Of a stretch of DNA of 64,000 nucleotides, positions 6,989 to 14,747 are shown in pieces. A model generated the notes under the pieces. It was given only the letters and a program-made list of their open reading frames with translations, was not told where the DNA came from and made no database searches. The stretch spans positions 5,805,501 to 5,869,500 of the forward strand of contig NZ_CP108106.1 in assembly GCF_041435195.1 (NCBI RefSeq), read 5' to 3'. Numbering within the stretch: the stretch's first letter is position 1; every line of letters starts with the position of its first letter. Source of the DNA: Streptomyces sp. NBC_00224 (GTDB lineage: Bacteria > Actinomycetota > Actinomycetes > Streptomycetales > Streptomycetaceae). Made by a program: the position numbers and the translations under genes.

Positions 6989-8380
6989 TCACGGCCGGGT
7001 CATCCGCAGTACGTCCAGGGCCTCGTCCAGCTGCGCCTCGGTGAGGTCGCCGCGCTCCACGTACCCGCCCGCCAGGACCACTTCGCGGATCGTCCTGCGC
7101 TCGGCCAGCGACTTCTTGGCGACCTTCGCCGCCTCCTCGTACCCGATGTACTTGTTGAGCGGGGTGACGACCGACGGCGAGGACTCCGCGTACTCCCGCG
7201 CCCGCTCGCGGTTCGCGGTGATCCCGTCGACGGTGCGGTCGGCGAGCAGTCGGGAGACGCTCGCGAGCAGCCGGATCGACTCCAGCAGGTTCCTGGCGAT
7301 GACCGGGAGCATCACGTTCAGCTCGAAGTTGCCCGCCGCACCCGCCGCCGCGACCGTCGCGTCGTTGCCGGTCACCTGCGCGGCGACCATCAGCACGGCC
7401 TCCGGGATGACCGGGTTGACCTTGCCGGGCATGATCGAGGAGCCCGGCTGGAGGTCGGGCAGGTTGATCTCGGCCAGTCCGGTGCGCGGCCCCGACGCCA
7501 TCCAGCGCAGATCGTTGGAGATCTTGGTGAGCGAGACGCCGACCGTGCGGAGCTGGCCGGACGTCTCCACCAGGCCGTCCCGCGCCCCCTGCGCCTCGAA
7601 GTGGTCGCGGGCCTCGGTGAGCGGAAGGCCGGTCGCCCGCGCCACCTCCGCGATCACGGCCGCCGAGAACCCGGGCGGGGTGTTGATGCCGGTGCCGACG
7701 GCGGTGCCGCCCAGCGGGAGCTCGGCGAGCCGGGGCAGCGAGGCCCGCAGCCGCTCCACGCCGTAGCGCATGGCCGCCGCGTAGCCGCCGAACTCCTGGC
7801 CGAGGGTGACCGGGGTGGCGTCCATCAGATGCGTACGCCCGGACTTCACCACGTCCGCGAACTCGGCGGCCTTGCGCTCCAGGGCCTCGGCGAGGTGTTC
7901 CAGGGCCGGGATCAGATCGCCGGTGACGGCGGCCGTGGCGGCGATGTGGATGGAGGAGGGGAAGACGTCGTTGGACGACTGCGAGGCGTTGACATGGTCG
8001 TTGGGGTGGACGTCCCGGCCGAGGCGCTCGCTCGCCAGGGTCGCCACCACCTCGTTCATGTTCATGTTGGACGAGGTGCCCGAGCCGGTCTGGAAGACGT
8101 CGACCGGGAAGTGCTCGTCCCACCGCCCCTCGGCGACCTCCGCGGCCGCCTCCTGGACCGCCCCCGCGATGTCCTTGTCCAGCACGCCCAGTTCGGCGTT
8201 GACCTTGGCGGCGGCCGCCTTGATCCTGGCCAGCGCCTCGATGTGGGCGCGCTCCAGACGCTGTCCGGAGACGGGGAAGTTCTCCACCGCCCGCTGCGTC
8301 TGGGCCCGCCACTTGGCGTGCGCGGGGACCCGCACCTCGCCCATGGAGTCGTGCTCGACGCGGTACTCACTGTCGTTCAT
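6989..8380 (-). CDS. fumC: Class II fumarate hydratase (iron-independent)
   Basis: 463 residues, cytoplasmic. It interconverts fumarate and L-malate in the TCA cycle. The superfamily signature [11 protein letters not shown] is present with catalytic Ser315 on the mobile loop. [14 protein letters not shown] and [11 protein letters not shown] match the other two conserved regions of the fumarase/aspartase superfamily. The first region reads as fumarase rather than aspartase or argininosuccinate lyase. ATG 8380 is chosen because AAGGAGG stands nine bases upstream. The gene is divergent from the SGNH esterase. A second, unrelated fumarase (class I) lies about 4.7 kb away, an arrangement I recall as normal in Streptomyces. 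Class II enzymes need no metal cofactor and typically serve when iron is short or oxidants are present. Confidence 0.95.
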
Positions 8381-8487
8381 GTTCTTGAACCTCCTTGTAA
8401 AGATGAGCACTTGTCTTGTTCTAGCTATTCCCAAGGGGCCCTACCGGCCAGTAAATACCGGTGGTAACTCATCACCGGGGAGGCGCA

Positions 8488-10002
8488 ATGAGGCGCACCA
8501 GGAACAGACTTCGCTGTACGTTCGCGGCCGCCGTGGCCGCGGCGGCCGCGTTCGGGGGCATGACGGCGACAGCGACGGCCGCACCCGCGGCGACGGTACA
8601 GTCCACCCCCCTTCCGCCCGAGCTTGAGAAGATCCGCGCCGCCGAGGCGCTCAAGCTGTACGGGGATTCCGCCGAGCGGCCCATGGACCAGCGCAGGACC
8701 GGGCTCATCTCGCTCGGCGACAGCGAGATCTCCGGCGAGGGCGTCGGCACCTACGAGGCCGGCACCAACGGCCCCGACAACTGGTGCCACCGGGCGCCGG
8801 ACTCCGCGATCCACCGCACCGGGATCCCTGCCGACGAGACGTACAACGTGGCTTGTTCGGGCGCGTACACCGGCAATATCCGGATAGGCGGCTCGAAGCA
8901 GTACGCGGACGAGCTCGTGCAGAGCGACAGCCTGGCCATCAAGGCCCGCAACACCCGCATCAAGATGGTGCTGCTTGTCGCCGGGGCCAACGACGACCTC
9001 CAGTTCGGGCCGGTGATGACCGACTGCGTGGAGCGGTACCTGCTGCTCCAGGGCCCGTGCGAGTCGAAGTACGCGCCCGGCTGGCAGGCGCGGGTCGACG
9101 GCCTGGTGCCCAAGGTCGAGCAGACGGTCACCGACCTGAAGAGCGTGATGCGCGACGCCGGGTACGCCGACGGCGACTACAAGCTGGTCGTGATGGGCTA
9201 CCCGAGCCCGATCGGCCCCGACTTCCACGACAACCCGAACTTCCCGGGCAAGCTCGTCTGCGGCGGCCTCGGCTACGACTCCGACACCGTCTGGGGCCGC
9301 AACACCGCCGTCCCGGCCTTCGAGCGCGGGATGCGCAAGGCGGCGGCCGACACCGGCGCGGTCTACCTCGACAACTCGCGGCTCTTCAACGGCCACGAGG
9401 TGTGCATGGAGGACACCTGGGCGCGCGGCCTCTACATCGACCTGTCCAAGCCGGGCCTGCCGGACTCCAACTCGGTGCGCCAGTCCTTCCACCCCAACTA
9501 CCGGGGCCACGGCGCCTTCGCGTCCTGCCTCACCCAGATCTACGACTCGGGGCAGCGTGAGGCCAGTTGCGCCGACCCGGCGTCCACCGGTTCGCCGGTG
9601 CTCTACCCGCTCGCCTGGGACGACGCGTACCAGCCGCTGAAGAACGCGTCGACCGGCAGCTGTCTGGACGTGAGCGGCGCGTCCAGCGCCAACAACACCG
9701 CCGTCGTCGGCTGGGACTGCCACGGCGGCCGCAACCAGAACTGGTGGTACGACGGCACCCGCAAGTCGGTCCACACCCAGCTCACCCAGGACCGCTGCCT
9801 GGACGTGCCGGGCGCGAACTACTCGGCCGGGGCCAAGCTGATCATCTGGAACTGCCACGGCGGCGCCAACCAGGAGTTCGTCAGGGACGGCTCCACCCTG
9901 CGCCCGGCGGCGGCCACCGGCCTGTGCGCCACGCTGGCGGCGGCCAAGGACCCGCTGACGCTGCGCCCGTGCGACGGCTCCCCGTCGCAGCGCTTCGCGT
10001 AA
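8488..10002 (+). CDS. Secreted SGNH/GDSL esterase with C-terminal ricin-type lectin domain
   Basis: 504 residues. A Sec-type signal peptide is clear (MRRTRNRLR, then an Ala-rich core, then TATAAPA near residues 30-34). The SGNH hydrolase domain carries Ser79 in SLGDSEISGEG and the catalytic His335 in SFHPNYRGH; VAGAND supplies the block III Asn. A ricin-B-type beta-trefoil begins near residue 380, with QxW-like repeats NQNWWYD, NQEFVRD and SQRF. An extracellular ester hydrolase anchored to a carbohydrate substrate (plant polymer, acetylated glycan or lipid) is likely. ATG 8488 follows GGGGAGG by four bases and starts an ideal signal peptide; the GTG at 8461 would spoil it. Confidence 0.9.
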   Translation: MRRTRNRLRCTFAAAVAAAAAFGGMTATATAAPAATVQSTPLPPELEKIRAAEALKLYGDSAERPMDQRRTGLISLGDSEISGEGVGTYEAGTNGPDNWCHRAPDSAIHRTGIPADETYNVACSGAYTGNIRIGGSKQYADELVQSDSLAIKARNTRIKMVLLVAGANDDLQFGPVMTDCVERYLLLQGPCESKYAPGWQARVDGLVPKVEQTVTDLKSVMRDAGYADGDYKLVVMGYPSPIGPDFHDNPNFPGKLVCGGLGYDSDTVWGRNTAVPAFERGMRKAAADTGAVYLDNSRLFNGHEVCMEDTWARGLYIDLSKPGLPDSNSVRQSFHPNYRGHGAFASCLTQIYDSGQREASCADPASTGSPVLYPLAWDDAYQPLKNASTGSCLDVSGASSANNTAVVGWDCHGGRNQNWWYDGTRKSVHTQLTQDRCLDVPGANYSAGAKLIIWNCHGGANQEFVRDGSTLRPAAATGLCATLAAAKDPLTLRPCDGSPSQRFA

Positions 10003-10032: not shown

Positions 10033-10051
10033 TTAGGTTAGGCTGTCCTAA
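10033..10051 (+). promoter_or_regulatory. Iron box (DmdR/IdeR-type operator)
   Basis: TTAGGTTAGGCTGTCCTAA is a 19-base interrupted palindrome matching the actinobacterial DmdR1/IdeR iron-box consensus (TTAGGTTAGGCT-N-ACCTAA, recalled) at all but about one or two positions. It sits 21 bases before the GTG of the acylase fusion and just ahead of its AGGGAGGGG ribosome site. A Fe2+-loaded regulator bound here would block the promoter, so the gene should be derepressed by iron starvation. Confidence 0.85.
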
Positions 10052-10072
10052 CTTATAGGGAGGGGATCGGGC

Positions 10073-12679
10073 GTGAGCGCCGAGGTCTATCGCGACACCT
10101 GGGGCGTCCCGCACCTGCGGGCGGCCGACGCCCGTGAGCTGGCGTACGCGCAAGGGCGGGTCACCGCCGTGGACCGAGCCTGGCAGCTGGAGGTCGAACG
10201 GCACCGGGTGCAGGGCACCACGGCCGCCTTCCTCGGCCCCGACGCGGTCGGCTGGGACGTCTTCGCCCGCCGCGCCCGCCTGGCCGACACGGCCCGCCGG
10301 TGCTTCGAGGCGCTGGACGCGGAGACGGCGGACTGGGTCACGGCGTACGTGGCGGGGGTCAACGACGGGCTCGCGGGCGGGGCCGCCGGTCGGCCCGGCT
10401 TCGCGGAGTCGGGCCTGGCGCCCGGCCGCTGGGAACCGTGGACGCCGCTGGGCGTCTGGCTCTCCACCCACATCCTCTTCGCCGGTTTCCCCACCAAGCT
10501 CTGGCGCGAGCGGGCGGTCGCGGCGCTCGGCGCGGGCGCGGTGGAACTCTTCGCCACCGACGGCCCCGGCACCTCCGGCTCCAACGGCTGGCTGGTCACC
10601 GGCGAGCACACCGCCACCGGCGCCGCGATCATCGCGGGCGACCCGCACCGCTTCATCGAGGACCCCGGCGTCTACCAGCAGATCCGCCTCTCCTGCCCGG
10701 AGTTCGACGTCGTCGGCCTCGCCGTCCCCGGCGTCCCCGGCATCGCCCACTTCGGCCACACCGGCTCGGTCGCCTGGGCCATCACCAACGCCATGGCCGA
10801 CTACCAGGACCTCTACCGCGAACGCCTGCGCCGCGACGGTACGGACGTGGCCGCGCTCGGCCCCGACGGCTGGGCCCCGGCGTCCGTCCACGTCGAGACG
10901 GTGGAGGTGGCGGGCGCGGCCCCGGTGACGGTCGAGGTGATCGAGACGGACCGGGGCCCGGTGATCATCGGCGGCCCCGACGCGGCCGACGCCATCAGCC
11001 TGCGCCACCCGCCCCGCGTCACCGCCGCCCTCGGCTTCGCCGCGCTCCCGGCGCTGCTGCGCGCCCGGACCGCCGACGACGTCGACCGCGCCTTCGACGA
11101 GTGGGTCGAGCCGGTCAACGTGGTCCAGGCCGCCGACACCCGGGGCGGCCATCTGCACCGTGTGGCGGGCCGCGTACCGCTGCGCCACGACATCAACCGC
11201 GTACGGGTCGTACCGGCGTGGGAGGCGGCCCACGCGTGGCAGGGCTGGGCCCCGATGCCGCGCGCGGAGGTGTCCGGGACGGCCGTGATGGCCAACCAGC
11301 GGGGCCTGGCGGCGCCGCTGGGCGTGGAGTTCGCGCCCCCGTACCGCGCGGACCGCATAACGGCCCTGCTGGCCGCCTCGCGCGCGTGGACGGCTCCGCG
11401 GATGTCGGCGATCCACACGGACACGGACCTGGCGTCGGCACGCCCGCTGCTGGGACTGCTGACGGACCTCAAGGGCCTGACTCCCCGGGCGGAGACCCTC
11501 CGGGACCGTCTGACGACGGGCTGGGACCGCCGCATGGAGGCGGATTCGACGGACGCGATGGCGTACGCGACGGTGCGGGAGCGGGTCGTACGCCACCTGG
11601 CGACCCACCCGTCCTTCGCCGACCTGGCCGAACTCCCGCCCCTGCCCGACCTGTTCCTGCCCTGGCTGGCGCTGACGCCGAGGATCGCGTTCGCGCTGGA
11701 GACGATCCTGACGACGTCGATGCTGCCCGAGCTCGACCGGGTGGAGCTGGTGCGGGTGGCGCTGGAGGAAGTGGCGGCGGAGGGCGTGGAGTTCGGGCCG
11801 TGGGGCGAGGCGCACCGGCTCGCGCCGTGGCAGGCGCTGCCGGCGCCCCAGGAGTGGCCGGGCCTGGCGGGCGACCACGACTGCGTCCTGTCCACGAGCA
11901 GCGTCCCCGGCCTCACACACCGCAGCGCCCGGGGCCCGGCCGCGCGGTACGTCTGGGACCTGGCCCGCCGCGAGGACAGCCTCTGGGTGGTCCCGTTCGG
12001 CGCGTCGGGCGCACCGGACAGCCCCCACCACCGCGACCAGCTCCCGCTGTGGGTGGCGGGGGAGCTGGCGCCGGTGGTGACCGACTGGAGCGACCTGAGG
12101 AGAGAGACGTTGTACGAGCGGAGTGCCCACGCGTACGAGGAGAAGGTCGCCGGCTTCGGAACGGTCCGGCTGCGCCCGCTGGACCCGCCGGAGGACGCGG
12201 ACCTGATCCACTCGTGGGTCACCCAGGAACGGGCCCGGTTCTGGGGGATGCTGGACGCGGACCGCGCGTACGTGGAGGAGACCTACGCGTACGTCGACTC
12301 CCTCCCCACGCACCACGCGTTCCTGCTCCTGCTGGACGACGAGCCGGTGGGGCTGTTCCAGACGTACGAGCCGGGCGCCGATCCGCTGGGGGAGTGCTAC
12401 GAGGTGCGCCCGGGCGACGTCGGCATCCACATCCTGGTGGCCCCCGCACCGGGCCCGGCGCGCCCCGGCTTCACGGGCGCCCTGATGAGAACCCTGATCA
12501 ACTACGTCCTCTCCGACCCCGCCCACCAGCGGATCGTGGTGGAACCGGACGTACGGAACGAGAAGTCGATCGAGCGGATGGTGCGGTCGGGGTTCGTGCT
12601 GGGGGAGGAAGTGGACAAGCCGGAGAAGCGGGCCCGCCTGGCGTTCCTGGAGAGGCCCCCCACCCCGCCCGTTACCTGA
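10073..12679 (+). CDS. Iron-regulated fusion: penicillin-acylase-type Ntn hydrolase + IucB-like siderophore N-acyltransferase
   Basis: 868 residues. Residues 1 to about 675 form a penicillin amidase/PvdQ-type Ntn hydrolase. The chain begins with the family opening (VYRDTWGVPHLRA, then AYAQGRVTAVDRAWQLE). The nucleophile is probably Ser170 in SGSNGWLV, where autocleavage would free the beta chain, and NPVNVVQAAD-like and GTAVMANQR segments follow. Unlike secreted acylases it has no signal peptide, so it should be cytosolic. Residues of about 700-865 match the IucB/RhbD-type acetyltransferase of siderophore pathways (RFWGML, PVGLFQTYEP, DVGIHILVAP, VVEPDVRNEKSIERMVRSGF). With the iron box this implies hydroxamate siderophore tailoring or salvage. 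Separate amidase and acetyltransferase genes have been reported with some desferrioxamine clusters (recollection). A TTG at 12110 preceded by GAGGAG might yield the second domain alone. Confidence 0.85.
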   Translation: MSAEVYRDTWGVPHLRAADARELAYAQGRVTAVDRAWQLEVERHRVQGTTAAFLGPDAVGWDVFARRARLADTARRCFEALDAETADWVTAYVAGVNDGLAGGAAGRPGFAESGLAPGRWEPWTPLGVWLSTHILFAGFPTKLWRERAVAALGAGAVELFATDGPGTSGSNGWLVTGEHTATGAAIIAGDPHRFIEDPGVYQQIRLSCPEFDVVGLAVPGVPGIAHFGHTGSVAWAITNAMADYQDLYRERLRRDGTDVAALGPDGWAPASVHVETVEVAGAAPVTVEVIETDRGPVIIGGPDAADAISLRHPPRVTAALGFAALPALLRARTADDVDRAFDEWVEPVNVVQAADTRGGHLHRVAGRVPLRHDINRVRVVPAWEAAHAWQGWAPMPRAEVSGTAVMANQRGLAAPLGVEFAPPYRADRITALLAASRAWTAPRMSAIHTDTDLASARPLLGLLTDLKGLTPRAETLRDRLTTGWDRRMEADSTDAMAYATVRERVVRHLATHPSFADLAELPPLPDLFLPWLALTPRIAFALETILTTSMLPELDRVELVRVALEEVAAEGVEFGPWGEAHRLAPWQALPAPQEWPGLAGDHDCVLSTSSVPGLTHRSARGPAARYVWDLARREDSLWVVPFGASGAPDSPHHRDQLPLWVAGELAPVVTDWSDLRRETLYERSAHAYEEKVAGFGTVRLRPLDPPEDADLIHSWVTQERARFWGMLDADRAYVEETYAYVDSLPTHHAFLLLLDDEPVGLFQTYEPGADPLGECYEVRPGDVGIHILVAPAPGPARPGFTGALMRTLINYVLSDPAHQRIVVEPDVRNEKSIERMVRSGFVLGEEVDKPEKRARLAFLERPPTPPVT
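12097..12112 (+). promoter_or_regulatory. Possible internal ribosome site and TTG start for the acyltransferase domain
   Basis: Inside the fusion, GAGGAGAG (12097-12104) is followed five bases later by TTG at 12110, in frame at codon 680 and exactly at the domain boundary. This looks like the relic of a former intergenic start, or a working internal start that makes a free acyltransferase. Confidence 0.4.

Positions 12680-13067: not shown

Positions 13068-14747
<1,680 letters not shown>

Follow-up and report, generated by a model that had tools for sequence, protein, structure and literature searches.

Judged from its sequence, the gene at positions 10073-12679 of the window (the whole 64,000-nucleotide stretch of Streptomyces sp. 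NBC_00224 DNA that was analysed) is very probably a fused form of the DesG/DesH pair of desferrioxamine B biosynthesis. The pair was described in 2025 from S. coelicolor, in which desG (a penicillin-amidase-family gene) and desH (an acyltransferase gene) form an operon under iron control that lies apart from the des cluster (SCO4049/SCO4050; PMC12161575). Both genes are reported to be needed for normal desferrioxamine B levels, with inactivation of desG and desH lowering desferrioxamine B about 1000-fold and 16-fold, respectively, and raising desferrioxamine E, and the authors propose that DesG takes succinyl off N-hydroxy-N-succinylcadaverine and that DesH acetylates the product (PMC12161575). 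The domains, their order, the putative iron box and the co-occurrence pattern of the fusion gene fit the pair as described in that paper. The initial annotation of this DNA had suggested that one enzyme could swap the acyl arms of a siderophore, an idea close to the published mechanism (succinyl off, acetyl on). It had also thought the fusion undescribed, which is not the case: desGH fusions in S. atratus and Micrococcus are named in PMC12161575, with the remark that closeness could favour acetylation before re-succinylation, and the S. atratus locus is fused in the present set too (L070).

The window's gene and the S. coelicolor pair thus share an amidase followed by an Acetyltransf_8 domain, an iron box, a des cluster elsewhere in the genome and the same proposed acyl swap. 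They differ in that the S. coelicolor pair consists of two separate genes, whereas here a single fused gene (as in S. atratus) sits between fumarases and keeps a ribosome site and a start inside its frame. There is also no desJ-type gene among the immediate neighbours of the fused gene, unlike in S. coelicolor, where the two genes are accompanied by desJ, which is paralogous to the ferrioxamine reductase gene (PMC12161575).

Results

The fused desGH gene (10073..12679, plus strand) is one open frame with a GTG start, a TGA stop, 868 encoded amino acids and a third-codon-position G+C content of 0.96. Pfam places a Penicil_amidase match at residues 3-676 (511.5 bits) and an Acetyltransf_8 match at residues 704-848 (163.9 bits against a cut-off of 27), delimiting a predicted DesG half of the penicillin-acylase-type Ntn-hydrolases (10079..12100, plus strand) and a predicted DesH half of the IucB/DesC-type GNAT acyltransferases (12182..12616, plus strand). 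The search rule of PMC12161575, PF01804 and PF13523 within 1 kb, finds both domains here in one frame; five amidase-family genes are present in the genome, and an Acetyltransf_8 domain adjoins this one only. These results bear out much of the initial annotation, which had read the frame as an acylase fused to a hydroxamate-siderophore-type (IucB-like) acyltransferase: both domains score over cut-off, and the family search does not place the second outside the IucB/DesC type. The strong ribosome site that it had marked before the start is likewise present (AGGGAGGGG, 10057..10065, plus strand), and its view that the hydrolase lacks a signal peptide agrees with Kyte-Doolittle means over 19 residues, which for windows starting at residues 1-60 reach at most 0.62 in DesGH as against 1.45 in a secreted-looking neighbour. 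By this measure, which is not a signal-peptide predictor, DesGH has no hydrophobic N-terminus within residues 1-60.

Ser170 (codon 10580..10582, plus strand), already singled out as a nucleophile candidate, aligns with residue 1 of solved acylase beta chains and is the predicted nucleophile and first beta-chain residue of the hydrolase. It is invariant, together with Gly169, Asn171, His192 and Asn408, in 42 of 42 aligned fused sequences, as are His786 and Asp826 of the transferase half, which we take to be the catalytic residues of DesH. Structure prediction, which had been put forward as a check, gave a model of the fused protein with a mean pLDDT of 83.8 and a pTM of 0.74 (built from 42 sequences), whose predicted fold is best matched by D-succinylase at ranks 1-4, followed by cephalosporin and glutaryl acylases and then by MacQ, penicillin G acylases and PvdQ. 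The D-succinylase of Cupriavidus (7eby) and the glutaryl-7-ACA/cephalosporin acylases have in common with DesGH the Ntn-hydrolase layout with a serine at the start of the beta chain; they differ in their natural substrates and in having no transferase half, and are only about 20-33% identical to it. A D-succinylase-like fold would be that of an enzyme removing dicarboxylic acyl groups, as the published model requires, and so supports that model without proving it. The closest solved sequence to the DesG half is 35sz, titled 'penicillin acylase family protein' with no named function, which does not figure among the 50 proteins listed by the fold search; for the transferase half, the solved protein closest in sequence is the desferrioxamine enzyme DfoC.

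PvdQ of pyoverdine maturation, which is periplasmic, had been proposed as the nearest functional parallel. It shares with DesGH the hydrolase superfamily and a siderophore context, but it has no transferase half, it appears only at rank 43 of the fold matches, which D-succinylase heads, and the NCBIfam PvdQ model gives DesGH 45.3 bits against a cut-off of 950. A PvdQ-like role was rejected on this score and on the lack of a hydrophobic N-terminus.

Upstream of the gene lies a near-palindromic putative iron box, an operator of the DmdR/DtxR type (TTAGGTTAGGCTGTCCTAA, 10033..10051, no strand assigned). This 19-base element, noted in the initial annotation, is an exact match to the searched pattern; its 3' end is 21 bases before the GTG start, with the ribosome site in between. 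Chance was rejected as its origin: the pattern had no match in 100 shuffles of the window, a slightly looser one (at most 2 mismatches) has 8 matches in the 9.18-Mb genome (three contigs) as against 0 for a reversed-pattern control, and a box with at most 3 mismatches stands within 400 bases upstream of desG in 92 of 100 non-duplicate loci as against 1 of 432 control stretches. The other 8 loci have no box within 3 mismatches. Two of the eight genomic places are in the des cluster at 3.70 Mb, and four further ones are found at positions 2231703, 2593997, 2994107 and 3169981 of the main contig (G000:C1). The fused genes of Kribbella (L087, L092, L098, L099, L105, L106, L110, L111 and L114) have a diverged box, with 3 mismatches in eight of the nine loci and 5 in L092; production of desferrioxamines B and D1 has been reported for K. 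speibonae (PMC7411998).

The des cluster at 3.70 Mb, 2.1 Mb from the fused gene, has in a row a binding-protein gene and members of the families expected for DesA, DesB, DesC and DesD, and the consecutive PF00282, PF13434, PF13523 and PF04183 matches (L017) identify desABCD-type genes in the same genome. The description of the fusion as cluster-free accordingly holds for its position and fails for the genome, and linkage to des clusters, another suggested check, proved to be occasional, with des genes near desG in 8 of 80 named loci within the flanks covered. The two fumarases noted beside the gene were both confirmed by Pfam: a class II fumarase (FumC; 6989..8434, minus strand; Lyase_1, FumaraseC_C) and a class I fumarase (13068..14747, minus strand; Fumerase, Fumerase_C). 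Both are placed outside the system, as is a GDSL-type hydrolase with a ricin-B-type lectin domain (8461..10002, plus strand; Pfam). A functional link to the fumarases was rejected, as this neighbourhood recurs in only 2 of the 80 named loci, flanks being short in some: S. melanogenes (L050) and Streptomyces sp. CBMA152 (L103).

Elsewhere in the genome, a stand-alone DesH-like transferase of 222 residues (L019:8402-9070, minus strand; about G000:C1:698401-699069) has an exact iron box of its own (699143-699161) and no amidase-family match nearby. It nests among the DesH rows of the transferase tree and is 63% identical to the DesH of L035, so a further DesH, uncoupled from DesG, may be present in the genome. 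At about 6.63 Mb (L018, G000:C1) lies a second siderophore-like cluster, in which two IucA/IucC genes surround an Acetyltransf_8 domain.

Across the genus, DesG is strongly matched (E at most 1e-100) in 177 of 295 genomes and DesD is present in 242, and every one of the 177 has DesD (176 under a stricter DesD limit, the exception being G224); the association has a Fisher p of 1e-25, a statistic that ignores kinship. The 65 genomes with DesD and no strong DesG indicate that the DesG/DesH pair is accessory. In these counts 51 genomes whose only matches were weaker than 1e-100, some of which may be fragments, were not taken as having DesG. In a transferase tree of 43 sequences, 34 of them DesH rows picked from 100, the C-terminal half of DesGH groups with the DesH rows, apart from 7 DesC rows, which are united in a single fully supported clade at the end of a long branch (2.37). 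The idea that this half is DesC was rejected on these grounds. It shares its Pfam family with the DesC/DfoC-type acyltransferases, whereas the genome encodes its DesC separately, within the des cluster. In the tree the DesC branch joins among the DesH rows at a poorly placed point, which we ascribe to its length.

The fusion itself is widespread. A search for homologues of the same build, as had been advised, gave both Pfam domains in 120 of 120 protein relatives listed among 3624 found, and named fused loci come from Streptomyces, Kribbella, Microbispora, Nonomuraea, Thermoactinospora, Salinispora and Glycomyces. Our sample of 100 loci was assembled from the best 80 of the 578 matches that a fused query gave and the top 30 of the genus matches, 10 of the 110 being dropped as duplicates; it holds 60 fused and 40 split loci (59 and 41 before L084 was relabelled fused by hand), proportions that reflect a sample biased to fused forms and are not a frequency. 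Within the genus, at least 18 of the 177 strong-DesG genomes have a row that extends at least to residue 852 within an open frame no shorter than 873, one of them (G161) being flagged with a TGA. G079 (C1:5298576 and 1107751) and G128 (C2:5840596 and 1897381) each have a match to DesG alone besides a fused one, so one genome can contain both arrangements.

The DesG tree intermingles fused and split forms. A quick tree of all 100 rows implies 13 changes between them. A bootstrapped tree, restricted to 62 rows by manual removal of 8 on long branches and 30 near-copies, implies 11, with 10-11 in the bootstraps; well-supported branches alone force at least 4 in each tree, and such counts do not separate fusion from fission. 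A single fused clade was rejected on the 62-row tree (p-AU 0.00045). The window's gene stands with those of S. melanogenes and Streptomyces sp. CBMA152, all three being fused and set between the same fumarases.

The junction offers a simple route between the two forms. In 39 of the 40 split loci desG and desH overlap by 4 to 17 bases (L100 has no overlapping start), and a ribosome-like site of at least 4 bases precedes the overlapping start in 37, with none in L039, L046 and L100. Since the split genes overlap by so few bases, a small indel would suffice to bring desH in frame with desG. Read by eye, L095 (fused) and its sister row L121 (split) show a single-base difference in the spacer ahead of the start, and the junction of the window's gene resembles the split form of L040 minus four bases.

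Within the window's frame, a ribosome-site-like AGGAG (12098..12102, plus strand) is followed by an in-frame TTG at residue 680 (12110..12112, plus strand), a possible start for free DesH. TTG is a weak start; at the same codon L050 has GTG, and L103 has GTG one codon nearer the ribosome-like site. A junction site of at least 5 bases with an in-frame start occurs in 27 of the 60 fused genes, the window's included, as against 2.6% of 1329 control windows taken from the same genes; at 4 bases or more the figures are 35 of 60 and 12.4%. The other 33 fused genes have no junction ribosome-like site of 5 bases or more. In the window, L050 and L103 the site is spelled by the rare arginine codons AGG AGA, and over all fused genes AGG/AGA account for 33 of 184 junction arginine codons as against 171 of 4575 elsewhere.

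Discussion

We consider it likely that DesGH, as a single polypeptide, performs an iron-controlled succinyl-to-acetyl swap serving desferrioxamine B. This reading rests on the combination of the domains, the iron box, the desABCD-type genes, the co-occurrence with DesD, the grouping with DesH, the matches to D-succinylase and DfoC, and the phenotype of the S. coelicolor mutants. Under iron limitation, a DmdR-type repressor would leave the iron box and DesGH would be made in the cytosol, where the DesG half is expected to cleave itself before Ser170 and to remove succinyl from the N-hydroxy-N-succinylcadaverine made by DesC, the substrate proposed by others. The DesH half would then transfer acetyl from acetyl-CoA onto the freed N-hydroxycadaverine, and joining the halves should favour this acetylation before DesC re-succinylates the intermediate. 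With more acetylated end unit at hand, DesD, encoded 2.1 Mb away, would make acetyl-capped linear desferrioxamine B, and not only the cyclic, all-succinyl E.

Among the alternatives, it is conceivable, if improbable, that the fusion installs other caps (aryl or fatty acyl) on desferrioxamines, with DesG loading or trimming the acyl group and DesH transferring it. PMC12161575 gives this as the first proposal made for DesG, and reports capped desferrioxamines of all three kinds from strains that have desGH. In S. coelicolor, however, the mutants lose the acetyl-capped product, and according to the account of that species in PMC12161575 no aryl forms are known there; the best fold matches, moreover, are enzymes that remove dicarboxylic acyl groups, with the penicillin G acylases lower.

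Still less probable, in our estimation, is a recycling enzyme that would hydrolyse ferrioxamines, or fragments of them, after import and put acyl groups back on the diamine pieces. Amidase chemistry under iron control would fit such a task, as would the company of desJ in S. coelicolor, but the desG and desH mutants of that organism lose desferrioxamine B and gain E, which is a synthesis phenotype (PMC12161575). A role for DesGH with the second siderophore-like cluster at 6.63 Mb, in place of desferrioxamine, is scarcely credible despite the presence of that cluster in the genome, given that the transferase encoded there is distant from DesH (branch 3.35), that no iron box within 2 mismatches is found there and that DesG goes with DesD across the genus.

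The recurrence of the fusion invites a further idea. A ribosome site and an in-frame start kept at the junction suggest that free DesH might still be made, although the kept site may be a mere relic. Repeated fusion and splitting by overlap indels could act as a tunable switch that sets how closely succinyl removal is coupled to acetyl addition, with free DesH made in addition from an internal start in many fused genes, the window's included. We regard this as rather doubtful; if true, one gene yields both a coupled enzyme and a spare acetyltransferase. The breadth and recurrence of the fusion, the gene overlap and the retained internal start were not found in the open-licence papers searched, supplements aside.

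Desferrioxamine B is used as a drug against iron overload, and only in 2025 was the choice between it and the cyclic E assigned to DesG and DesH (PMC12161575). Strains of S. globisporus with identical des clusters make either E or B (PMC12525621), and the term desG has no occurrence in the main text of that paper. S. globisporus 1912-4Crt (L060) has a fused desGH off the cluster with a perfect iron box, which suggests a test for this puzzle. More generally, as DesGH is a single polypeptide, the unproven step of the pathway, in which succinyl would be taken off and acetyl then put on, becomes testable with one purified protein.
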